Shown one piece after another: positions 8,015 to 26,735 of a DNA stretch of 36,502 nucleotides. Both the position numbers and the translations under genes were made by a program. Every line of letters begins with the position of its first letter. The stretch's first letter is position 1. A model generated the notes under the pieces. The model saw only the letters and a program-made list of their open reading frames with translations, was not told the DNA's origin and ran no database searches. The DNA is from Nitrospira sp. (GTDB lineage Bacteria > Nitrospirota > Nitrospiria > Nitrospirales > Nitrospiraceae), in the NCBI GenBank assembly GCA_013140455.1, contig JABFSU010000065.1, forward strand, positions 1 through 36,502, in the 5' to 3' direction.

Positions 8015-11000
8015 GCTCGCTTCGGGCCGGCGGCGCAAATCGAGGGTCAAGGGAAAGTCCCGGTTCCGCTCTTCAGGCCGGACCGTCATGGGTCCCGGCG
8101 TATGACCATAATCCCAGAAACGTGCCATGCGACGGGCTTCGGCTGCGTTCGCGTTGACCGGGAACGAGGGGGAGCTCCGTCCGCCCGGATGCACGACATG
8201 GTAGGTGCATCCGCCGATGGCGCGTCCGGTCCAGCTGTCGACGAGATCAAACACCAGCGGGGACTGGACCGGAATGGTCGGATGCAACCCTGAAGGCGGT
8301 TGCCAGGCCTTATAGCGGACCCCCGCCACAAACTCGCCGCGCGTTCCGGTCGGATGGAGCGGGACCGGACGACCGTTGCACGTCACGACGTGGCGTGTGT
8401 CGGTCATGCCGTTGACTTTGACCTGTACCCGTTCCACTGAGGAATCCACATAGCGTGCGGTGGCGCCCGCGATCGTTTCCTCCCCCAACACATGCCACGG
8501 TTCAATGGCCTGACGCAGTTCGAGCTCAATGCCGTCAGCCACGACACTGCCGTATCGGGGAAAGCGAAACTCAAGAAACGGGGCAAACCACTCGCCACGA
8601 AACGGATATCCACCGGCCTGTAAGTCCCACATCACGTCCTTCACATCTTGCGCGACGAAATGAGGCAGCATAAACCGGTCATGCAATTCAGTTCCCCAGC
8701 GCACCACCTGAACTTGGTAGGGCTGGTTCCAGAACTTCGCGACGAGGGCCCGCAGCAGCAACATCTGCGACAAACTCATCCGGGGATGAGGCGGCATTTC
8801 AAAGGCCCGAAATTCCACCAGGCCCAGGCGTCCCATCGCGGAGTCCGGCGAATAGAGCTTGTCGATAGAGAATTCCGCGCGGTGCGTATTGCCGGTCAGA
8901 TCCACGAATAAATGTCGCAAGAGGCGGTCCACCAGCCACGGCACCGGAGTGTCCTGCCCGGCCACCTGCCTGGCGGCCATATGCTGAAACGCGATCTCGA
9001 GTTCATACAGGTGATCGTGGCGCGCCTCATCGACTCTCGGCGCCTGGCTGGTCGGTCCCACAAACATGCCGGAGAACAGATAGGACAACCCGGGATGATT
9101 CAGCCAATAAGTGGTGAGGCTCCTGAGCAGATCCGGACGGCGCAACATCGGACTGTCTGCCGGCGTGAGGCCGCCTAAGGTCACATGGTTCCCGCCCCCG
9201 GTGCCGGTATGGCGCCCATCGAGCATGAACTTTTCAGTACCCAACCGTGATTGACGCGCCTCCTCATAGAGGATATGCGTCGTGCTGACCAGTTCATTCC
9301 AGGTCTTGGCCGGGTGAATGTTGACCTCAATCACACCCGGATCGGGAGTGACTTTGAACGACTGCATGCGGGGATCATAGGCAGGCGGATAGCCTTCCAC
9401 CCAGAGAGGACTGTGCAGCTCAGCCGCCGTCTGCTCAACCGCGCCGATCAGATCGAGGTAATCTTCCAGATAGGACTGCGGCGGCATGAACACGTGCAGT
9501 CGCCCCTGCCGGACTTCGACGCACAAGGCTGTTCGAAGCACAGCGCGAGCCGATTCACCGACCGCCCAGGCCGTGGGAATCGAGTGTTGCCGTTGATCGG
9601 GTGCGCCCGGGTTGCGCGTGTGAGATCTGGCCGGCCCCAAGGAAGATTTACGCCCCTCCAACGGGTCGCGTTCCAGTTCGATCTCGACATCTTCCGGAGC
9701 TGCCCAAGGGAGCGCCGTCAAAGGCAGTCGATAGCCCATCGGTGAATCTCCCGGTAACAGATATAGCCGTCCCCGCTTCAGCGGCCAGGGACCGGAGATC
9801 CATTGGGACTTGTACGGCCACGAGCGGGGGAGCGCCGGCGACGCCGCGGCTCTCAGCGGCAAGACATAACCGGCCACTTCCCCCAGCCCGCGATCCAGCA
9901 AGCGCGCCAAGGTGCGGCGCTGCTCCGGATCCTTGAGGTCCTGTTGCAGCGGGTCCACATTGACCGGCAGCTTCTGTTCCTCCGTCAGGTAATGCCAGAC
10001 ATCTTCGTAGGCAGGGATGGCAAACGCCGGATTCAGATTCAGCCGTTCGGCCAGCCTGGTCACAAACTTCTGCGCGTGCTCAGCCGAATAGCCGTAGGAG
10101 ACTGCTTCATCGGCGACCAGTCCCGGATCATGCCACACCGGCTCGCCATCCAGCCGCCAATAGCATCCCAACGCCCAACGCGGCAGCGATTCTCCCGGAT
10201 ACCATTTGCCCTGACCGTAGTGCAGCAACCCGCCCGGCGCAAAGCGATCCTTGAGGCGCGTGAGCACGTCGCCGGCAAGGGTGCGCTTGGTGGGACCGAG
10301 CGCATCGGTATTCCACTCCGCGCCCTCCATGTCGTCGATCGAGACAAACGTCGGTTCGCCTCCCATCGTGAGGCGCACATCGCCCGCCAGCAAATCGGCA
10401 TCGACCTGCCGCCCCAGCTGTTCGATGGCGCCCCATTGCTCGTCGGTATAGGGCTTTGTGACGCGCGGATCTTCGTGAATCCGCGTGACCGACATGCTGA
10501 CGTCCAGCTCGGATTCGCATACATCGGTACGGCCGATCACCGGCGCGGCACTGGACGGAGAGGCCGTGCAGGCCAAGGGGATGTGCCCTTCTCCCGCCAG
10601 CAGGCCGGACGTCGGGTCGAGGCCGATCCAGCCGGCCCCGGGAATATAAACCTCCGCCCAGGCGTGGAGGTCGGTGAAATCCTGCTTGGGCCCGGCCGGT
10701 CCTTCGAGCGGCTTCATATCGGCCGTCAACTGAATCAAGTACCCGGACGCAAACCGCGCTGCCAGGCCGAAGTTCCGTAGAATCTGCACCAGCAACCAGC
10801 CACTGTCACGACACGAGCCCTGTCGCGATTGCAGTGTCTGCTCACAGGTTTGAACGCCCGGTTCCAGCCGGACAATATAGTCGATATCTTTTTGCAGCCG
10901 TTGATTGAGGCGAACCAGAAAATCATTAGTGAGGGGTGACTCACCGCGGTCGGCATCCTTAAACCGTTCCACCCAGGCTGCGAGCAACGGCCCGCAGGGT

Positions 11001-11362
11001 TCAACTTCAAGGAACGGCACCAACTCCTTCGTCAGCTGCGGGGAATAGGCAAACGGAAATCGTTCGGCATACGGCTCGACGAAAAAATCGAACGGGTTGA
11101 TCACCGTCATATCGGCTACCACATCCACCACCACCTCGAGCTCGGTGGCCGGCTCCGGAAAGACGAGGCGAGCCACGTAATTGCCGTAGGGGTCCTGCTG
11201 CCAATTAATGAAATGATTCGCCGGTTGAACGCGGAGGGAATAGCTCTGAATGCGAGTCCGGCAATGGGGGGCGGGGCGCAGCCGGACTTCATGGGGGGAA
11301 AGGCTCACCCGCCGATCAAACCGATAATGGGTCTTGTGGTTCAGTGCGACCCGAATGCTCAT
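8012..11362 (-). CDS. Transglutaminase-like protease fused to DUF2126 (putative amidoligase), Anbu locus
   Basis: This is a 1116-residue protein. Residues 1-~90 form the bacterial transglutaminase N-terminal beta domain. The transglutaminase/papain-like core follows, with Cys184 (RQGSCRDS), His233 (DLHAWAEVYIPG) and Asp249 (GLDPTSG) as a complete catalytic triad. The remaining ~800 residues match DUF2126, described as a putative amidoligase region, with blocks such as MGGEPTFVS and GGGNHVTLGG. It would cleave or form amide bonds in the cytoplasm, since there is no signal peptide. The ATG lies 3 bp after the Anbu stop, so the two are almost certainly co-translated. It is intact and of the expected size for the long form in this gene neighbourhood. 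Confidence 0.9.
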   Translation of the reverse strand: MSIRVALNHKTHYRFDRRVSLSPHEVRLRPAPHCRTRIQSYSLRVQPANHFINWQQDPYGNYVARLVFPEPATELEVVVDVVADMTVINPFDFFVEPYAERFPFAYSPQLTKELVPFLEVEPCGPLLAAWVERFKDADRGESPLTNDFLVRLNQRLQKDIDYIVRLEPGVQTCEQTLQSRQGSCRDSGWLLVQILRNFGLAARFASGYLIQLTADMKPLEGPAGPKQDFTDLHAWAEVYIPGAGWIGLDPTSGLLAGEGHIPLACTASPSSAAPVIGRTDVCESELDVSMSVTRIHEDPRVTKPYTDEQWGAIEQLGRQVDADLLAGDVRLTMGGEPTFVSIDDMEGAEWNTDALGPTKRTLAGDVLTRLKDRFAPGGLLHYGQGKWYPGESLPRWALGCYWRLDGEPVWHDPGLVADEAVSYGYSAEHAQKFVTRLAERLNLNPAFAIPAYEDVWHYLTEEQKLPVNVDPLQQDLKDPEQRRTLARLLDRGLGEVAGYVLPLRAAASPALPRSWPYKSQWISGPWPLKRGRLYLLPGDSPMGYRLPLTALPWAAPEDVEIELERDPLEGRKSSLGPARSHTRNPGAPDQRQHSIPTAWAVGESARAVLRTALCVEVRQGRLHVFMPPQSYLEDYLDLIGAVEQTAAELHSPLWVEGYPPAYDPRMQSFKVTPDPGVIEVNIHPAKTWNELVSTTHILYEEARQSRLGTEKFMLDGRHTGTGGGNHVTLGGLTPADSPMLRRPDLLRSLTTYWLNHPGLSYLFSGMFVGPTSQAPRVDEARHDHLYELEIAFQHMAARQVAGQDTPVPWLVDRLLRHLFVDLTGNTHRAEFSIDKLYSPDSAMGRLGLVEFRAFEMPPHPRMSLSQMLLLRALVAKFWNQPYQVQVVRWGTELHDRFMLPHFVAQDVKDVMWDLQAGGYPFRGEWFAPFLEFRFPRYGSVVADGIELELRQAIEPWHVLGEETIAGATARYVDSSVERVQVKVNGMTDTRHVVTCNGRPVPLHPTGTRGEFVAGVRYKAWQPPSGLHPTIPVQSPLVFDLVDSWTGRAIGGCTYHVVHPGGRSSPSFPVNANAAEARRMARFWDYGHTPGPMTVRPEERNRDFPLTLDLRRRPEAS

Positions 11363-11365
11363 AGA

Positions 11366-12094
11366 TCAATCGTTCCAATGCGGATCAGGCAGATCGGTGA
11401 ACAGCCGCTTCAACCCCGCCCCCCACCGCCGACGCACATCGTCGAAATACGAGTCTTGCTCTCCCAGGCGCCGTTGGAGCCCGACTTTCAGGCTGTCCCG
11501 CTCGTAACACAACAAGTCGATCGGCGGACCGACTGAAATATTGCTGCGCATCGTCGAATCGAACGAGATCAGAATGCATTTCGCCGCCTCCATCAGCCCG
11601 GTGGAGTAGGTGATCACCCGGTCGATGATGGGCTTCCCGTACTTGATTTCTCCATTCTGGCAATAGGGCGTGTCCGGGGTCGCTTCGATGAAATTGCCTT
11701 CTGTATAAATATTGAAGAGCCGGTGCCGTTCACCCCGGATCTGCCCGCCCACGATGAAGGATGCGTTGCCGTCGATATTGTGCTGCACGAGATAGGGCCC
11801 GTCCCGTTTCTGCACTTCACGCAAGGTCTCCCCGACGAGGCACGCGATATCATACATGGACGCGCTGTTCCAGATGTTCTGCTGGAGCATCTGAGCGCGC
11901 TGTTCCAGCAAGGCCACCACACCCTGAGTCACGGCAAGATTGCCTGAACTGAGCATCACAATCACCCGATCGCCGGGACGTTCGAATACCGTCATTTTGC
12001 GAAAGTTACCGATCTGATCCACCCCCGCATTGGTTCGTGAATCGGACGCGAGAACCAAGCCGGAATCCATGATCACGCCAACACAGTAGGTCAT
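11366..12094 (-). CDS. Anbu, proteasome-type (Ntn-hydrolase) protease
   Basis: This is a 242-residue homologue of proteasome beta subunits and HslV. I choose ATG 12094 rather than the TTG one codon upstream. Removal of Met then exposes Thr1 (TYCVGVIMDSGLVLASDSR), the N-terminal nucleophile of this fold, and GAGGG lies at a suitable distance. Counting from Thr1, Asp17 (ASDSR) and Lys32 (NFRKM) fall where the catalytic Asp17 and Lys33 of proteasomes lie. The C-terminal extension with YFDDVRRRWGAGL is typical of Anbu. It heads a two-gene transcript with the transglutaminase. Its substrates are unknown; the locus suggests a linked peptide-making and peptide-degrading pathway. Confidence 0.9.
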   Translation of the reverse strand: MTYCVGVIMDSGLVLASDSRTNAGVDQIGNFRKMTVFERPGDRVIVMLSSGNLAVTQGVVALLEQRAQMLQQNIWNSASMYDIACLVGETLREVQKRDGPYLVQHNIDGNASFIVGGQIRGERHRLFNIYTEGNFIEATPDTPYCQNGEIKYGKPIIDRVITYSTGLMEAAKCILISFDSTMRSNISVGPPIDLLCYERDSLKVGLQRRLGEQDSYFDDVRRRWGAGLKRLFTDLPDPHWND

Positions 12095-18814: not shown

Positions 18815-20524
18815 GTGGCAGACAACCAATTCAGCCCATCGGTCGCAACACGAGGCATCCAACTTCCGTTGATCGCGCCCCTCCGACGCCCGCTTCCGAT
18901 TACCGCAATTGAGCCGAAAGGCGTCGTCTACACAAAGCGATGGGTCGTTGAGCTACTCCTCAATCTGAGCGGCTATAGCCCGGATAAGAATCTGGTGGAC
19001 AGCCTGGCAATCGAACCAGCGGCCGGCGACGGTGCGTTTCTCGGCCCCATGATCGAGCGCCTAATAGAATCGTGCCGAAAGCTCGGCCGATCGCTGCCTG
19101 ATTGCCGGGACTCCCTAAGAGCCTATGAACTGGATGAGAAAAGTGCGGCTCGTGCGCGCGCTGTCGTCCAAGAGATCCTTATTAAGCATGGAGCAAAGAG
19201 CCCACTCGCAAAAAAACTGGCTGACGCGTGGGTAGTACAGGGGGATTACCTTCTGGATGCCGACCAGAGACAAGCCGACTTCATTATCGGAAATCCTCCG
19301 TATGTACGCCTTGAAGATATTCCGGAAGACACAGCTTCGGTCTACCGCAGCGCGTATCCGACGATGCGCGGAAGAGCAGATCTCTACGTGGCGTTCTTCG
19401 AAGCCGCACTTCGGCAATTGAAAACCGGCGGGGTATGCGCCTTCATCTGCGCTGACCGATGGATGCGCAACCAATATGGAGCTGAACTGCGGCAACTGAT
19501 TAGTTCGGCGTACAGTGTCGAGCTGCTCCTCAGTATGCACCACGCCAATGCCTTCGATGATGACGTGGACGCCTATCCGGCCATCACAGTCATCCGACAC
19601 GCAAAGCAACTGTCAACTGTGGTAGCACGCGCTGATCAGGACGCTGAACACATTCAGCCAAAACAATTGGCAACAGCACTTCAGACCAACAACCGCGACC
19701 TCCTGCCCCAAGGCATCCATCGAGCCGATGTACACACATGGTTCAAAGGGTCAGATCCCTGGCCTTGCCATTCACCGGAACAGCTGGCGCTCCTCCGACG
19801 ACTGGAAGATCAGTTTCCTCCCCTTGAACTGAATGCCAAGGTGGGAATCGGCGTAGCCACAGGGAACGATCGGGTCTACATCACGACAGAAGCAGACCTG
19901 GTGGAGCCCTCCCGCCTCCTGAAGCTTGCACTGGCGAAAGACCTGGCGGACGGAACGGTTCGATGGTCCGGGCACTATCTCGTGAGTCCATGGAATGATG
20001 ATGGGCTGGTCAATCTGAAGACTTACCCGAAGTTGCAGGCCTACTACGAACGACATGCCGAAGCCCTGAAGAAGCGCCACACCGCGGAGAAGAGCGCCGA
20101 CAAATGGTACAAGACGATTGACCGCGTCAACCACACGCTCACACGCGCACATAAACTGTATATTCCGGATATCAAGAACACACTCGAGCCGGTCTTAGAT
20201 CGTGGCGAAACCTACCCGCACCACAATCTGTATTTCATTCAGTCGGATGAGTGGGATCTGGAAGTACTCGGCGGCCTTCTGCTGTCGAAGGTGGGACAGT
20301 TTTTTGTCGAATCCTATGGAGTCCGCATGCGAGGCGGCTACTTGCGCTTCCAAGCGCAATACCTCCGCCGGATTCGCGTCCCTGCGCCTCAGTCCCTATC
20401 TAAGCCCCAATCACAGGAATTAAGAGACGCCTTCCGCCTTCGTGATAGGACCCGTGCAACCCAAGCGGCGTTGGATCTATATGGAATCAGCACTAGCACG
20501 CTGGAGGCCGCGCTTGAACATTGA
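18815..20524 (+). CDS. N6-adenine DNA methyltransferase of a XhoI/PaeR7I-type RM system
   Basis: This 569-residue protein has the amino-methylase signatures in gamma order. Motif I is EPAAGDGAF (67-75), which binds S-adenosylmethionine. Motif IV is NPPY (160-163), which makes it an adenine-N6 methylase. The C-terminal half (TaqI-type specificity region, GIGVATGNDRVYI and later GGLLLSKVGQFFVESYGVRMRGGYLRF) reads the target. The partner nuclease is of the XhoI/PaeR7I family, so the target is predicted to be CTCGAG. The start is a GTG at 18815 with GGAG upstream. Several CTCGAG sites occur in this window (for example 8996, 11135, 20183, 22415) and would need its protection. Confidence 0.88.
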   Translation: MADNQFSPSVATRGIQLPLIAPLRRPLPITAIEPKGVVYTKRWVVELLLNLSGYSPDKNLVDSLAIEPAAGDGAFLGPMIERLIESCRKLGRSLPDCRDSLRAYELDEKSAARARAVVQEILIKHGAKSPLAKKLADAWVVQGDYLLDADQRQADFIIGNPPYVRLEDIPEDTASVYRSAYPTMRGRADLYVAFFEAALRQLKTGGVCAFICADRWMRNQYGAELRQLISSAYSVELLLSMHHANAFDDDVDAYPAITVIRHAKQLSTVVARADQDAEHIQPKQLATALQTNNRDLLPQGIHRADVHTWFKGSDPWPCHSPEQLALLRRLEDQFPPLELNAKVGIGVATGNDRVYITTEADLVEPSRLLKLALAKDLADGTVRWSGHYLVSPWNDDGLVNLKTYPKLQAYYERHAEALKKRHTAEKSADKWYKTIDRVNHTLTRAHKLYIPDIKNTLEPVLDRGETYPHHNLYFIQSDEWDLEVLGGLLLSKVGQFFVESYGVRMRGGYLRFQAQYLRRIRVPAPQSLSKPQSQELRDAFRLRDRTRATQAALDLYGISTSTLEAALEH

Positions 20525-21281
20525 CAGGAGATTGCAAGCCGCCGTCCAGAGCTACTGGAACGCCCGCAGGACAAACAAAGAAAAGCAGGTCAAGTCGGGG
20601 AAAATCGATGCCGGAACCAGAGGGGAGGTCACAGGAGGCACTCAGATGGGTGCCCTGGAGGTCTTGGTTTCTGACATTCTTTGCGAAGCCGGATTGAAGA
20701 AGGTCGATATCCGCACAAGAACCGCGCTTGAGTTACCGGGTTACTTCAGAGCCACGAAAAAGTGGGATCTTATCGTTGTCTCCAACAGCGCGTTGGTCTT
20801 GGCGATGGAGTTCAAATCCCAAGCCGGCAAGTCGATCGGCAACAATGTGAACAATCGTTCGGAAGAAGCGGTGGGCAGCGCCAAAGATATCTGGACGGCA
20901 TTCCGAGAAGGCCGCTTTGGTCAGGCGCCTCCTCCATTCCTCGGCTATCTGTTCCTCTTAGAAGATCGTGACAATGTCAAAATCCCCGTTGCCAACAAGG
21001 AACCATACTTCCAGGTAGACCCCGAGTTCCGCGGCGAAGCACATTTCAAGGATACAACAGCCCTCCGACGGTACAAGGGAGTCTCCTACAGCAAGCGCTA
21101 CGAACTTTTGTGTCGCCGCCTAGTACTGGAGCGGCTGTATAGCTCGGCCTGTTTTATGATGGCCACTAATTCACCAAAGACGAAAGTCACGCAGCCGGCT
21201 GAAGACCTCAATTTCCAGCGCTTCGTCGCCGCCCTCCGAGGTCATGTCGTCACATTCCTGGGCAGCCGTAGTAAAAACTAA
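20481..21281 (+). CDS. XhoI/PaeR7I-type restriction endonuclease (predicted CTCGAG)
   Basis: The nuclease closely follows the XhoI/PaeR7I family. SYWNARR and the GKIDAGTRGEVTGGTQM block come first. The PD-(D/E)xK core is built from WDLIVV (Asp96) and AMEFKSQ (Glu110, Lys112), followed by GNNVNNRSEEAVGSAKDIWTAFREG, a family hallmark. ATG 20481 overlaps the methylase end by 44 bp, which suggests coupled translation. A TTG at 20514 is another possible start and would fit family N-termini equally well. The overlap delays nuclease production behind methylase. No separate control protein gene is visible. Confidence 0.88.
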   Translation: MESALARWRPRLNIDRRLQAAVQSYWNARRTNKEKQVKSGKIDAGTRGEVTGGTQMGALEVLVSDILCEAGLKKVDIRTRTALELPGYFRATKKWDLIVVSNSALVLAMEFKSQAGKSIGNNVNNRSEEAVGSAKDIWTAFREGRFGQAPPPFLGYLFLLEDRDNVKIPVANKEPYFQVDPEFRGEAHFKDTTALRRYKGVSYSKRYELLCRRLVLERLYSSACFMMATNSPKTKVTQPAEDLNFQRFVAALRGHVVTFLGSRSKN

Positions 21282-21735: not shown

Positions 21736-22194
21736 CTATTTCACCGCCTTAGCTGAAGCGGGAGCGATAGAATCAGTCGAGCTGCGACCCAGTGCCATCC
21801 TGACCCTCAAAATGCATCGAGCTCCCCCCTTGGCGGTAAGTTCGTGCTGCCATATCCGGAGCACGTGCCATCCACCCTTCCTCAAAGTACGCGTCACCAA
21901 ACGATCACGATCCTTATTGCGAAGCAGCTTCTTTTCCCAGAATGCCCGGTTAGTCGCAGGCTGGGACGCGTGCTTCGGACAGCCATGCCAGAAACAGCCG
22001 TCCACAAATATTGCGAGGCGATGCTCACGAAATACAAAATCTGGGTTACCGAATAGCTTGGGGTGGCGACGCCAACCAGTGATGCTATGCTGCCGGAGGA
22101 GCTTTACCAACGCCAGTTCCGTCTTGAGATTCCCCTGCGCTCGGACACGAGACATTATTTGTGAGCGCTTCGCCTTGGGGTATATATCGGCCAT
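21736..22194 (-). CDS. vsr: Very short patch repair endonuclease
   Basis: This 152-residue Vsr protein nicks T:G mismatches left by deamination of 5-methylcytosine. The catalytic Asp52 (GNPDFVF) and His70/His75 (FVDGCFWHGCPKH) are in place. Of the structural zinc ligands Cys67 and Cys72 are present. The usual later Cys in the W-x-C motif reads WQH, so His117 may be the fourth ligand. It is divergent from the GHKL gene and accompanies the cytosine methylase at 25689-26735, whose mutagenic side effect it would repair. A ribosome site AGGA precedes ATG 22194. The region is more A+T-rich than the chromosome around it. Confidence 0.92.
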   Translation of the reverse strand: MADIYPKAKRSQIMSRVRAQGNLKTELALVKLLRQHSITGWRRHPKLFGNPDFVFREHRLAIFVDGCFWHGCPKHASQPATNRAFWEKKLLRNKDRDRLVTRTLRKGGWHVLRIWQHELTAKGGARCILRVRMALGRSSTDSIAPASAKAVK

Positions 22195-22279
22195 ACTGGA
22201 GTTTCCTGTAATGCCGACATGTTTACAAGAGGTCCACCAGAATCAGTCTGCACATACGAATCCAGAAAGGCCCCGCACA

Positions 22280-22308
22280 TTGTTTTGTTTAAGCAACACC
22301 TTTATTAT
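22280..22308 (+). promoter_or_regulatory. Predicted sigma-70-type promoter of the GHKL-REC-dcm operon
   Basis: TTGTTT (22280-22285), a 17-bp spacer and TATTAT (22303-22308). Transcription would start near 22315, leaving a short leader before the GHKL gene. It lies in the 156-bp divergent gap shared with vsr. Confidence 0.45.
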
Positions 22309-22350
22309 CTTAACCACGCAGGTCCTCCGCCCTAGCGATCCGTGAAAGCC

Positions 22351-24537
22351 ATGCCAAAAGTTTCAAGTGAATCAAAGATAACCGAACCAACAAAGATCCC
22401 CTTCACTCTGCACCCTCGAGTATTCGCCGCGCTTGGCGCAGACTTAGTAACAAGCGACGTCGTTGCGATCATTGAACTGGTAAAAAATTCCTACGATGCG
22501 TTTGCAACACGTGTGGACGTACGATTCGTCACCGATACTGCAGGCCGCCCAATGCTTGAGATCGAAGACGACGGTTGCGGCATGACAAGGGAAATTATCG
22601 AAAACGTTTGGTGTCTTGTTGCAACGCCGTTCCGCGAGCAAACAACGGTTTCAAAGCGGGGGACTGAGTCTCGCCGGGTAACCGGCTCCAAAGGGCTAGG
22701 ACGACTATCTTCCGCACGGCTTGGCAAACATCTGGAAATGCTGACAAAAACCAAGGATGGCGAGTGCTGGCAAGTAGAAGTTTCATGGACAGCCCTCTCA
22801 AAAGTAGCGTCTCTGGAGGACTGCTCAATCACAATTCTCAAGAAGAATGGCGACGAGCTGGCTGCCGAGTCGGGAACACGGCTACGGATTCAAGACCTTA
22901 ACTCTGACTGGGAGGACAGGGAGTCGGGTGCGCCAGAGAATAAAATTGACGAACTTCAGGAAGGCTTATCACGCCTAAGCCCACCATTTGAAAAGCTCAA
23001 CAAGTTTACAATCCTTCTTACTCGCCCCGGCGCGGGATCGGAACCGCTTGAAATCAAGCCGTCTGAACTGCTCGAAAATCCCGTCTACCGTATCGAAGGC
23101 AGTTTTAGCACTGACGGAAAGCTATCTTACCGGTATACACACAAACCTTTCTCATGTGCAGGGAGAACCGTAAAAAAAGAAAAGCGTTGGAGCACCGTAC
23201 TAGAAGACTTGAAATCATCGGTGAAACGAGCGAGGCTTGGCGAAACAAGGCCGTCTTGCGGACCATTTTCATTCGAGATTCGCGCGTGGGACTTAGACCC
23301 TGAGAGTATCAGTGAGGCTGTTCAACAGTTCGACCTTCATAAAAGGTCGGCCGTACGGAACGAAATTCGTGCATTCAAGGGGATATCTCTCTATCGAGAC
23401 AATGTGCTTGTCCTTCCCAAGTCTGAAAATACGCGCGACTGGCTCGGCCTCGATCTCCGCAGGGTCAGTAAGGTTGGCTCTCGTCTCAGCACAAGCCAAA
23501 TTGTTGGCTATGTCAGTATCGGCGCTGACGCAAATCCTGGCATCGCGGACACAAGCGACCGCGAACGTTTAGCGCGAGGCGGAGCGGTCGAAGAATTTGA
23601 ATCATTACTTCAGTACACTGTTACCCTACTGGAAAACGAACGCGATCAAGATCGAGCAAAAAAAGAACCTGAACCCACCGAACTCTTCGCAGCCCTCAGC
23701 GCCGATAAACTCGTCAGCGAAACCCAGGATCTTATCAGCGAGAAAGCTTCCGCCTCAGAAGTGTTGCCATTACTTACTCGCTTCGATGAGGATCTGCAAA
23801 GAACTCGAAAGAGAATTGAAAGCACCTTCAATCACTACAGTCGTCTCGCGACCATTGGGCTACTCGCACAACAACTCGTACATGAAGTCGGGAACAATAC
23901 CTCAATCATCCATGAGTTCATTGAAGTCCTGAAAGCACATTGGGCAAAGACCGGACAGGACCATGAGTCTATCCGACGCGCGCTCAACCTTGCCGAGAAT
24001 GCCCTTGCATCGTTGCAACGACTTGCCGAGCGGTTCCGCCCCCTTGCTAACCGTGGCTTCACACGCGGGAAACGCAAAGCATCATTGAGAGAAACTATAG
24101 CCACTTGCCTAGAGGCCAGGAAGCAAGAGATCGAGCGGCGCAAGGTAAAAATCGATTTGCGGCTTCGGGGTCATGACGAAGTGCAGGCTGATCCCGGTGA
24201 ATTATACGCCGTGTTCATTAACTTGCTCGACAACGCACTCTATTGGATTGAACGATCACAGGAAAAGAATGAACGATTGTTGCGGATTCAGTCTTCACCC
24301 AGCCGCATCAAAGGGCGCATCGAATGTGAGGTTCATGACTCCGGCCCCGGCGTACCCAAAAAAGACCAACAGAAAATCTTTTGGCCTGGATACACGCACC
24401 GACCTAGCGGGTACGGAATGGGATTGACAGTTGCCGGTGAAATTATAGAAGGCCATGGTGGGAAATTACGCATTTTAGAAGAAGGACGCATTGGTGGTGC
24501 GTCTTTCATATTCGACCTACCTCAATCGTCAACTTGA
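22351..24537 (+). CDS. Dual-GHKL protein: MutL/MORC-like ATPase plus histidine-kinase core
   Basis: This 728-residue cytoplasmic protein has no membrane segment. Residues ~20-160 are a first GHKL ATPase of the MutL/MORC/Hsp90 type: Glu42 and Asn46 (ELVKNSYDA), DDGCGM at 73-78 and the lid GSKGLGR at 112-118. A ~300-residue middle region is unassigned. A complete kinase core follows: H-box HEVGNN with His511 in the HExxN pattern, N-box with Asn624/Asn628 (NLLDNA), DSGPGVP and GYGMGLT. It is followed 7 bp later by a receiver-domain gene, its probable phosphorylation partner. GTG 22342 is an alternative start; the ribosome site is poor. MutL-like ATPases are known from some RM operons; the fusion to a kinase core is the odd part. 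Confidence 0.85.
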   Translation: MPKVSSESKITEPTKIPFTLHPRVFAALGADLVTSDVVAIIELVKNSYDAFATRVDVRFVTDTAGRPMLEIEDDGCGMTREIIENVWCLVATPFREQTTVSKRGTESRRVTGSKGLGRLSSARLGKHLEMLTKTKDGECWQVEVSWTALSKVASLEDCSITILKKNGDELAAESGTRLRIQDLNSDWEDRESGAPENKIDELQEGLSRLSPPFEKLNKFTILLTRPGAGSEPLEIKPSELLENPVYRIEGSFSTDGKLSYRYTHKPFSCAGRTVKKEKRWSTVLEDLKSSVKRARLGETRPSCGPFSFEIRAWDLDPESISEAVQQFDLHKRSAVRNEIRAFKGISLYRDNVLVLPKSENTRDWLGLDLRRVSKVGSRLSTSQIVGYVSIGADANPGIADTSDRERLARGGAVEEFESLLQYTVTLLENERDQDRAKKEPEPTELFAALSADKLVSETQDLISEKASASEVLPLLTRFDEDLQRTRKRIESTFNHYSRLATIGLLAQQLVHEVGNNTSIIHEFIEVLKAHWAKTGQDHESIRRALNLAENALASLQRLAERFRPLANRGFTRGKRKASLRETIATCLEARKQEIERRKVKIDLRLRGHDEVQADPGELYAVFINLLDNALYWIERSQEKNERLLRIQSSPSRIKGRIECEVHDSGPGVPKKDQQKIFWPGYTHRPSGYGMGLTVAGEIIEGHGGKLRILEEGRIGGASFIFDLPQSST

Positions 24538-24544
24538 GATTTGC

Positions 24545-25684
24545 ATGACCTGTCGCATTTTAATTGTTGAGGATGATGCGGTAATGGCAGAAAGCCTGGA
24601 GAATACCCTGCGACGTGAACTTGGGGAGATAGAAGTCATTCGTGTCAGTGATTTTGCGAAAGCACCCAATGAGATCGCCACCAAGCTGCCCGATATCGTC
24701 GTGCTTGATATTTTTGATGAACAGATTGAGCAACCGGCCAAAGATGCGGTAAAGCCTGCCTGGGATACTGTTTGGGCTGCGCATTTTTGCCCGGTCGTAT
24801 TTCATTCGGCACAGGAAGACCAGGACTACAAAAGTATCAACCATCCTTTCGTACGCTATGAGATTAAAGGAGCAGGCAGTCAAGGTCGCGTTGCAAACCA
24901 CATCAAATCATTCGCGCCAGAAATTGAAGGGCTACGCACCGTGCGGCAAGAATTATCGCGGAGTGCTGGGGAAACATTGCGTGACGTTGGCCCCCTTATT
25001 TGGCAATCAGGCAATCCAACCACGGAACAAACCGATCTATTCTTACGTGTGGCCAGGCGTCGAATGGCAGCAGCGCTCGATTATACGGCCGAACCCGAGA
25101 AACAAACTCAGGCTTGGGAGCAGTATATCTACCCGCCCATCGGTAGCGATCTGCTAACTGGTGACCTCATACGAGTCACGACTGAAAGTGAGACCGGACC
25201 CACTGCATATCATGTTGTTTTATCCCCTTCTTGCGACCTTGCTCGAGGGCCAGGCCGAAATCCGCTTCTGCAAATTCTGGTGGCGGACTGCGTGCCAATC
25301 CAAGACTTCCTAGTTGCAGCAAATGTGCTTCCAGCAAATGTGGATTCAACGAAACCCCTGACTTCCGGTCAACGCAAAAACCTACTTTCACAACTTAGCA
25401 AAGACCAAATTGCAGGCCTAACTGTTATGCCTGAGCTTCCCAATGTACTTCCGCTCATGGCAGCAAATCTCAAGAAGCTCTCACTTCTTCCTTACTGCGA
25501 CATCGCGCCAAAAAAAGATGAGAATAAACGGTTTTTCCGTGTTGCGAGTGTGGATAGCCCGTTTCGTGAACGGTTGGCATGGGCGTATCTCCAAGTCGCC
25601 GGACGCCCAGGAGTCCCCGACGTTGACCGAAACGCGCTAGCCGATTCTATCGCTCAACCCATTCCGCCCATGACCAAAGTCTAG
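24545..25684 (+). CDS. Receiver-domain protein with unrecognised C-terminal domain
   Basis: This is a 379-residue protein. Residues 1-~125 form a receiver domain with all active-site residues: Asp10/Asp11 (VEDD), phosphoacceptor Asp55 (IVVLDIFDE), Ser88 (FHSA) and Lys108 (EIKGAG). A linker helix region follows, then a ~240-residue domain I cannot assign. It contains a conserved-looking HVVLSPSCDLARGPG motif and later LLPYCDIAPKK. It has no helix-turn-helix, so it is probably not a plain transcription factor; an enzymatic or binding effector is possible. ATG 24545 sits 7 bp after the GHKL stop, and dcm follows after 4 bp, so all three are co-transcribed. Confidence 0.8.
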   Translation: MTCRILIVEDDAVMAESLENTLRRELGEIEVIRVSDFAKAPNEIATKLPDIVVLDIFDEQIEQPAKDAVKPAWDTVWAAHFCPVVFHSAQEDQDYKSINHPFVRYEIKGAGSQGRVANHIKSFAPEIEGLRTVRQELSRSAGETLRDVGPLIWQSGNPTTEQTDLFLRVARRRMAAALDYTAEPEKQTQAWEQYIYPPIGSDLLTGDLIRVTTESETGPTAYHVVLSPSCDLARGPGRNPLLQILVADCVPIQDFLVAANVLPANVDSTKPLTSGQRKNLLSQLSKDQIAGLTVMPELPNVLPLMAANLKKLSLLPYCDIAPKKDENKRFFRVASVDSPFRERLAWAYLQVAGRPGVPDVDRNALADSIAQPIPPMTKV

Positions 25685-25688
25685 CAAG

Positions 25689-26735
25689 ATGTACGCTATC
25701 GACTTCTTTTGCGGAGCTGGCGGACTGACGAGAGGATTTCTTGACGCCGGGATTCGCGTTGTAGCCGGACTGGATATTAACGAAAACTGCCGACGCACAT
25801 ACGAATCAAACAATAATCCTTCGAAATTCCTAGCTTGTGATTTACGCAAAATACGTCGCCAGGATTTGGAGCGGTATGTCGGTGACATTCCACCTGACGA
25901 ACTTGTATTCGCCGGCTGCGCTCCATGCCAACCGTTTAGCAAGCAGAGACGTGAAGTAGACGGCCGGGACAAAACTCTTCTCTCCCACTTTGGACGACTC
26001 GTCAGTGAATTTCTCCCGGGTTTTGTAGTTATTGAAAATGTCCCGGGGATCGTAAAGCTTCCCGGCAATAGCACCTATCGACGCTTCATTCGACAACTCC
26101 GATCCCTTGGCTACGAAGTTAGCGAAGGCGTCATTGACGCCAAGTTTTTCGGGGTTCCGCAAACACGCCGTCGCTGGGTCGTAATTGCCAGTCGGCTTAC
26201 CAGGCCCGAACTGCCCATGCCAACACACGGGGTGAATGGAGCACCTTTCGTCACTGTGCGCGATGCTATCAAACACTTTCCACGACTTGAGGCAGGCGAG
26301 CAAAGCGTGGCGGTACCGAATCATCGTGCGGCAAGCATCGCCCCAAACAACATTCGTCGTCTCAAGGCTACTCCACCCGATGGCGGGAGCCGAAAAGAGT
26401 GGCCCAATGAACTGGTACTTGATTGTCATCGCGGAGAATATCGGGGCCATTCGGATGTCTATGGTCGCATGCGATGGGATGCGCCGGCACCAGCGCTAAC
26501 GTGCAAGTGCTACAGTATTTCTAATGGCCGTTATGGACACCCTGAGCAGCATCGCGCAATATCGCTTCGAGAGGCGGCCAGACTCCAATCCTTCAGGGAT
26601 GATTTTATTTTCTACGGCAAGACACAAGGGGAGATTGGCACTCAGATTGGTAACGCCGTTCCTGTAGAACTTGCTCAGCATCTGGCTAAAACGGTTATGA
26701 ATCTCCGCAGGCAAACAAATAGAAAGCGCAGCTAG
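25689..26735 (+). CDS. dcm: DNA (cytosine-5-)-methyltransferase (Dcm/HpaII-like class)
   Basis: This 348-residue C5 methylase carries its motifs in normal order. Motif I is DFFCGAGGLTRGF (5-17). Motif IV is APCQPFS with nucleophile Cys80. Motif VI is ENVPG (116-120), motif VIII is QTRRR (158-162), and motif X is GNAVP near the C-terminus. The target-recognition region lies between ~190 and 280; its target cannot be read. It ends the GHKL-REC operon and pairs functionally with vsr. No cognate restriction nuclease gene is adjacent, apart from the separate XhoI-type system, which uses adenine methylation. Confidence 0.93.
   Translation: MYAIDFFCGAGGLTRGFLDAGIRVVAGLDINENCRRTYESNNNPSKFLACDLRKIRRQDLERYVGDIPPDELVFAGCAPCQPFSKQRREVDGRDKTLLSHFGRLVSEFLPGFVVIENVPGIVKLPGNSTYRRFIRQLRSLGYEVSEGVIDAKFFGVPQTRRRWVVIASRLTRPELPMPTHGVNGAPFVTVRDAIKHFPRLEAGEQSVAVPNHRAASIAPNNIRRLKATPPDGGSRKEWPNELVLDCHRGEYRGHSDVYGRMRWDAPAPALTCKCYSISNGRYGHPEQHRAISLREAARLQSFRDDFIFYGKTQGEIGTQIGNAVPVELAQHLAKTVMNLRRQTNRKRS

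Follow-up and report, generated by a model that had tools for sequence, protein, structure and literature searches.

The window analysed here, a stretch of 36,502 nucleotides from Nitrospira sp., carries a cassette of four genes (21736-26735) coding for a Vsr endonuclease, a protein with two GHKL ATPase modules, a response regulator and a C5 DNA methyltransferase (Table 1). We give an even chance to the reading that this is a mobile restriction-modification (R-M) or defence module controlled by a soluble two-component system, in which a DNA-monitoring ATPase gates a phosphorelay. The double-GHKL architecture and the idea that its first ATPase is the sensor have already been published, and the kind is widespread. 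What is new is the output domain of the partner regulator, which also exists as a stand-alone protein beside TIGR04255 genes; the pairing of regulators that carry it with C5 methylases, the short regulators going instead with an HNH gene and mostly an N6 methylase; and the presence of an EcoRII-N DNA-binding domain in some relatives.

Table 1. Features of the four-gene cassette (positions in the window)
Feature	Position	Strand	Evidence
Vsr endonuclease gene, 152 aa, divergent from the kinase gene	21736..22194	-	TIGR00632, 111.9 bits (cut-off 97.85)
Double-GHKL protein, paraMORC-like ATPase + histidine kinase, 728 aa	22351..24537	+	Pfam, homologue alignment, AlphaFold model, structure matches
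GHKL module 1 (aa ~15-150; E42, N46, D73, K114/G115/G117/R118)	22393..22800	+	PF13589; 87 homologues
Transducer (S5-like) and middle region (aa ~151-435; R349, D363, R404)	22801..23655	+	MORC/Hsp90 alignment, ~475 columns
DHp helical hairpin (aa ~468-570), predicted phospho-acceptor H511 at 23881-23883	23752..24060	+	AlphaFold helices; His conservation
CA domain / GHKL module 2 (aa ~571-728; N624, N628, D663, G687-G691)	24061..24534	+	PF02518, 9e-24
Partner response regulator, 379 aa, starting 7 bp after the kinase gene	24545..25684	+	Gene linkage, AF2 model
Receiver domain (D10, predicted phospho-acceptor D55 at 24707-24709, S88)	24545..24919	+	Z ~16 to receiver domains
Output domain (aa ~190-379; G206, C230, P296, R354-x-G356-x-P358)	25112..25681	+	Alignment; stand-alone homologues
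C5 cytosine DNA methyltransferase, 348 aa, 4 bp downstream of the regulator	25689..26735	+	PF00145, 4e-54

A soluble kinase with an ATPase in the sensor position

The kinase gene is a single open frame with an ATG start, an alternative GTG start being possible at 22342. Residues are numbered here from the ATG; the homologue alignment was numbered from the GTG, which adds three (E45 = E42, H514 = H511, R407 = R404). A preliminary description made from the sequence had proposed two GHKL modules of different lineages, an N-terminal one of the MutL/MORC/Hsp90 type and a C-terminal histidine kinase core, and this architecture stands. The N-terminal motifs lie where it had placed them (E42, N46, DDGCGM at 73-78, GSKGLGR at 112-118), as does H511, and both Pfam matches are far above cut-off, HATPase_c_3 (PF13589) at 5e-18 over residues 38-154 and HATPase_c (PF02518) at 9e-24 over residues 614-725. 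The profile search it had suggested as a possible refutation thus finds the N-terminal region to be GHKL. The nearest NCBIfam model to this first GHKL is NF050001, that of the BbrUII/HgiDII restriction enzymes (72 bits, residues 23-194). Sequence searches with the N half lead to MutL, PMS2 and Hsp90/Hsp82, and those with the C half to FixL, ThkA and ZraS.

The prediction of the full-length structure, also proposed in that description, shows the same division. The AlphaFold2 model, built with 35 homologues as input (mean pLDDT 81.5, pTM 0.73), begins with a Bergerat domain and a transducer of mixed alpha/beta structure; H511 sits on a long helix (468-534), which is followed by another helix (539-566) and the CA domain. 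With Foldseek, its N half matches the ATPase cassettes of MORC3 (E 2e-12) and MORC2 as well as Hsp90, and its C half FixL chimeras, ZraS and HK853; with VIA, the DHp-CA portion matches active histidine kinase structures with Z 20-24, and the CA domain alone those of ThkA and MprB with Z ~20-22. The protein has the GHKL motifs followed by an S5 transducer with a conserved basic residue (Arg404) that characterise MORC and paraMORC proteins, together with the H, N, G1, F and G2 boxes and the DHp-CA fold of a histidine kinase, while its DHp gives no match to the Pfam HisKA models. As had been foreseen, it has no transmembrane segment: the highest 19-residue hydropathy, 1.68 from residue 26, falls on GHKL-1 helices of the model. 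These results support the placing of the N-terminal ATPase where a soluble kinase has its sensor, as already put forward with the ATPase as a possible NTP sensor (PMC8011034).

Homologues were found in 9 of the 396 genomes sampled in the phylum and at no fewer than 80 loci of a species-representative genome collection. The source records include Bacteroidetes, Planctomycetes, Proteobacteria, Acidobacteria, Verrucomicrobia, Actinobacteria (Rothia, Microbacterium), Bacillus and others. The sample of 89 loci used below combines the 9 from the phylum with 80 listed from the collection, and 87 of them encode full-length homologues, that is, proteins of at least 640 aa aligned over both modules. K114, G115, G117 and R118 of GHKL-1, R404 and D363 of the transducer and H511 of the H-box are present in all 87; E42, N46, D73 and the next two motif glycines (G78 and G80 in GTG numbering) in 86; the Asn residues of the second N-box in 85; and the G1 Asp in 84. 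The divergence of the N half and that of the C half are correlated across homologues (r=0.93), and dN/dS against the closest relatives (L002 and L015, 84-86% identical) is 0.04-0.12 in every module. Both modules are thus maintained together, under strong purifying selection. The preliminary description had allowed for an assembly fusion of two frames. This, or a chance juxtaposition of two ORFs, has next to no probability: the frame is single, and the full-length homologues come from unrelated genomes and diverge in step in their two halves.

The gene is also found on mobile elements. Plasmid homologues, ~26% identical and mostly from Campylobacter (41 of 53 plasmid records), are mostly on predicted conjugative plasmids; records H3 and H6-H20 are full-length Campylobacter homologues, mostly annotated as sensor histidine kinase. 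Phage records gave two matches only, both short and unannotated (23-27% identity). The order Vsr-kinase-regulator-C5 methylase recurs on two IMG/VR contigs (L144, L145). The GC content of the four genes (0.51-0.55, against 0.58 for the window) is consistent with lateral transfer. The dip over 21736-26735, to about 0.50-0.53 where the more distant flanks on either side have about 0.58-0.60, outlines an acquired block.

The partner regulator and two types of cassette

The preliminary description overlooked the partner regulator and the cassette that defines the system. A homologous regulator lies downstream of the kinase in 80 of the 89 loci, spaced by -49 to +33 bp. In the window its Pfam match to PF00072 is below cut-off (1.7e-4), and its AF2 model (pLDDT 90.5) and sequence show the receiver fold with the acidic pair, Asp, Ser/Thr and Lys. 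Among the 80 regulators the Asp (D55) is kept in 79 and the Ser/Thr in 77, the Lys being less well aligned.

Its C-terminal output domain, ~170 aa long, has invariant G206, C230, P296, R354 and G356 in an alignment of 34 long regulators, none of which matches an HTH family. The domain gave no match in Pfam, NCBIfam or a PDB sequence search, and structure searches with the regulator (Foldseek, VIA) returned lists filled by receiver matches. A likeness to MazF/PemK, seen by eye, was rejected (hhalign against eight PemK sequences, probability 1.4%). A profile of the domain finds it in 18 of 396 genomes; by gene reading, 9 of these cases are regulators of the double-GHKL system, 8 are stand-alone proteins of ~180-220 aa, and 1 is doubtful. 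Regulator and stand-alone forms align with a profile-profile probability of 99.3% (E 2e-20), their G-D, C-D and R-x-G-x-P motifs corresponding, with L141 the most divergent. Seven of the eight stand-alone genes lie within ~1.5 kb of a TIGR04255 gene. This family, of which the literature searched held no mention, occurs in 82 of the 396 genomes, and only a minority of its copies have the output domain beside them. Such cassettes (L133-L135, L138-L141) consist of a TIGR04255 gene, often a gene for a small protein, and the stand-alone output domain; in L134, L135 and L141 they abut, by eye, helicase/PLD or DNA-methylase genes. They may be defence cassettes. The same domain is found in the middle of the 616-aa regulator of a deep relative (L021:538-2898, L137:1042-2892), whose kinase has 786 aa and a weak HEF_HK match; the gene beside it resembles, by eye, phosphoadenosine-phosphosulfate reductase-type proteins. 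The output domain may only bind.

Two types of cassette can be told apart by their regulators. The long ones go with a C5 methylase in 40 of 43 loci. The short ones (~205-233 aa), which fall in one large clade and consist of a receiver and a tail that is helical by eye, are followed by an HNH gene (Pfam HNH 2e-10 in L061) and usually by an N6 methylase: for complete short regulators the counts are 28/28 and 26/28, against 0/43 for this HNH gene beside long ones. One locus, L017, has a different HNH gene (HNH_2), upstream. Since the split follows essentially one clade, it amounts to about one event.

A DNA methyltransferase lies at most 4 kb from the kinase in 76 of the 89 loci. Most of the 13 loci without one are short or lie at contig ends; for two of these genomes, longer stretches (L176, L177) do carry a C5 methylase. 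C5 methyltransferases are otherwise scarce: a search of 59 related genomes gave about 40 match rows, and in the present genome no copy was found besides that of the cassette. The block from Vsr through the methyltransferase is conserved, at 76-80% identity, with L175 and L176, the latter a short contig. It contains the methylase and Vsr and no dedicated restriction endonuclease. Directly upstream, on the plus strand, lies a complete R-M pair of the XhoI/PaeR7I type, an N6 methylase (18815-20524; PDLC03313, 1e-191) and an XhoI-family endonuclease (20442-21281; 2e-68). As part of the system this pair (18815-21281) was rejected, as it was not found beside the conserved blocks of L175 and L176.

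Vsr is present in 24 of 47 C5 loci and in none of the 29 loci with an N6 methylase only (Fisher p 5e-7, a value that overstates the contrast, because the contrasts between cassettes follow clades and represent few independent events). This distribution fits repair of 5mC deamination and rules out Vsr as an obligatory nuclease. In several relatives the Vsr gene is upstream of the kinase gene and co-directional with it.

In L063 and L071 an EcoRII-N (B3-like) DNA-binding domain is fused N-terminally to GHKL-1 (2e-12 and 3e-13), with a weak case in L052 and none in the protein of the window; these fusions suggest that some members handle specific DNA. In L034 a second GHKL protein (10256-11725; 489 aa, MORC/paraMORC-like by eye) comes right after the regulator gene.

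Relation to known systems

GHKL proteins of R-M operons were defined as paraMORCs in 2008 (Iyer 2008; PMC2292703). Proteins made of HATPase_c_3, HEF_HK and HATPase_c, with Response_reg_2 partners, a C5 methylase and Vsr, were then described in an analysis that proposed the first ATPase as sensor and a branching of the family from paraMORCs (Bellieny-Rabelo 2021; PMC8011034). Our literature search for experimental work on the double-GHKL system gave only these two sequence analyses. The pair in the window resembles the HEF_HK/Response_reg_2 pair (PF19191, PF19192) in being soluble, in having HATPase_c_3 at the N-terminus, a DHp and HATPase_c at the C-terminus, and in its adjacent regulator with C5 methylase and Vsr nearby. 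It differs in the length of the regulator, 379 aa against 600 aa for the founding query of 2021. HEF_HK gives no match at E<=1 in this protein or its genome, and the regulator matches PF00072 weakly instead of Response_reg_2. Among 80 scanned kinases HEF_HK was found in L021 only, weakly and below cut-off, and in L003, a relative with 28% identity, the partner gives a PF19192 match that stays below threshold. As it fails both profiles, the pair is best called a separate branch of the HEF_HK/Response_reg_2 kind.

The paraMORC families 1-5 share the N-terminal GHKL and S5 domains and the link to DNA methylase, Vsr and HNH genes, but their C-ends are RE-fold, TIR or other domains of no assigned kind, where the present protein has a complete histidine kinase; no SF2 helicase is part of the conserved four-gene block. 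BbrUII/HgiDII (NF050001) and VcSduA have a related N-terminal GHKL. Of the relatives studied by experiment, the nearest found is VcSduA, a GHKL-nuclease of the paraMORC3 type, whose protection against phage requires both the GHKL Glu and the nuclease Lys (PMC12137116). Its nuclease is in cis at the C-terminus; here the kinase takes that place, with separate genes for regulator and nuclease. Kinases of the FixL/ZraS/AtoS type have the same DHp-CA core, but a PAS or periplasmic sensor instead of the GHKL ATPase.

A candidate phosphorelay and its alternatives

From the architecture, the conserved active sites, the linkage and the distribution of domains we infer a scheme of DNA input, catalysis, phosphotransfer and effector action. 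GHKL-1 and its transducer would act as a clamp of the MutL/MORC kind, gated by ATP; it would engage DNA, or a partner bound to DNA, and undergo an ATP-dependent change of shape. By way of the long DHp helix this change would reach the histidine kinase part, which would phosphorylate H511 and hand the phosphate to D55 of the adjacent regulator. Phosphorylation would free the C-terminal output domain (C230/D231, R354-x-G-x-P), in this branch a putative effector or recruiter; where the regulators are short, in the sister branch, an adjacent HNH endonuclease would stand in its place. The C5 methyltransferase would mark self DNA, and Vsr would repair the T:G mismatches arising from 5mC. A DNA-linked input, for which the preliminary description had named DNA ends, mismatches or unmodified DNA as examples, is supported indirectly, by the methyltransferases within 4 kb of most kinases, by the EcoRII-N fusions and by the predicted MORC-like fold. 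For the defence module as a whole speak the active sites kept under purifying selection, the frequency of regulator and methyltransferase at the loci, C5 enzymes being otherwise rare in the genomes, the conserved block without the XhoI genes, the EcoRII-N fusions, the split between long regulators and short ones with HNH, the MORC-like N half and FixL/ZraS-like C half, the VcSduA precedent and the gene order on the IMG/VR contigs. That the MORC-like ATPase reads the state of DNA and, by His-Asp phosphotransfer, arms an undescribed effector (the C-D/R-x-G-x-P domain shared with the TIGR04255 cassettes) is a bolder proposal, which we hold only tentatively.

The pair might stand outside the restriction machinery and be a regulatory two-component system that tunes the expression of R-M genes, for instance so that the methylase stays ahead of the nuclease. 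It does adjoin R-M genes, and published speculation on signalling that controls R-M systems comes close to this (PMC8011034). Against it, no DNA-binding output was recognised: the 34 long regulators match no HTH family, and the short ones, of about 215 aa, are a receiver with a tail; the output domain also stands alone, free of any receiver, in TIGR04255 cassettes, and in the branch of the window these genes often share an operon with the methyltransferase. We regard this tuning role as rather unlikely, though it is the least unlikely of the alternatives. A somewhat smaller probability goes to a C-terminal module that is no longer an active kinase and acts instead as a dimeriser or a second switch driven by ATP, recruitment of the regulator needing no phosphorylation. 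The failure of the HisKA models on the DHp and the sub-threshold receiver match would agree with this, but the His is universal, the N-box, G1 and G2 residues and the receiver Asp are kept, and the fold matches that of active kinases.

GHKL-1 could also replace MutL and work with Vsr in very short patch repair of 5mC deamination, as its similarity to MutL/PMS2, the adjacent Vsr gene and the overlap of the Vsr and kinase ORFs in L025 would allow. Such repair needs neither a kinase nor a regulator, however, and Vsr tracks C5 methylases, never N6 methylases alone, yet kinase and regulator persist where it is missing. A mismatch role through Vsr is thereby weakened, and we hold this substitution to be improbable, a little more so than the loss of kinase activity.

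If the phosphorelay were confirmed, it would represent immunity by phosphorelay, in which a kinase cascade decides on restriction and a relative of MORC senses DNA. What MORC ATPases sense could then be studied in a simple bacterial model, and the domain of otherwise unexplained sporadic cassettes would gain a testable function. Should the pair do no more than regulate R-M genes, the survey still shows a family that extends beyond the reach of the two Pfam models published so far.
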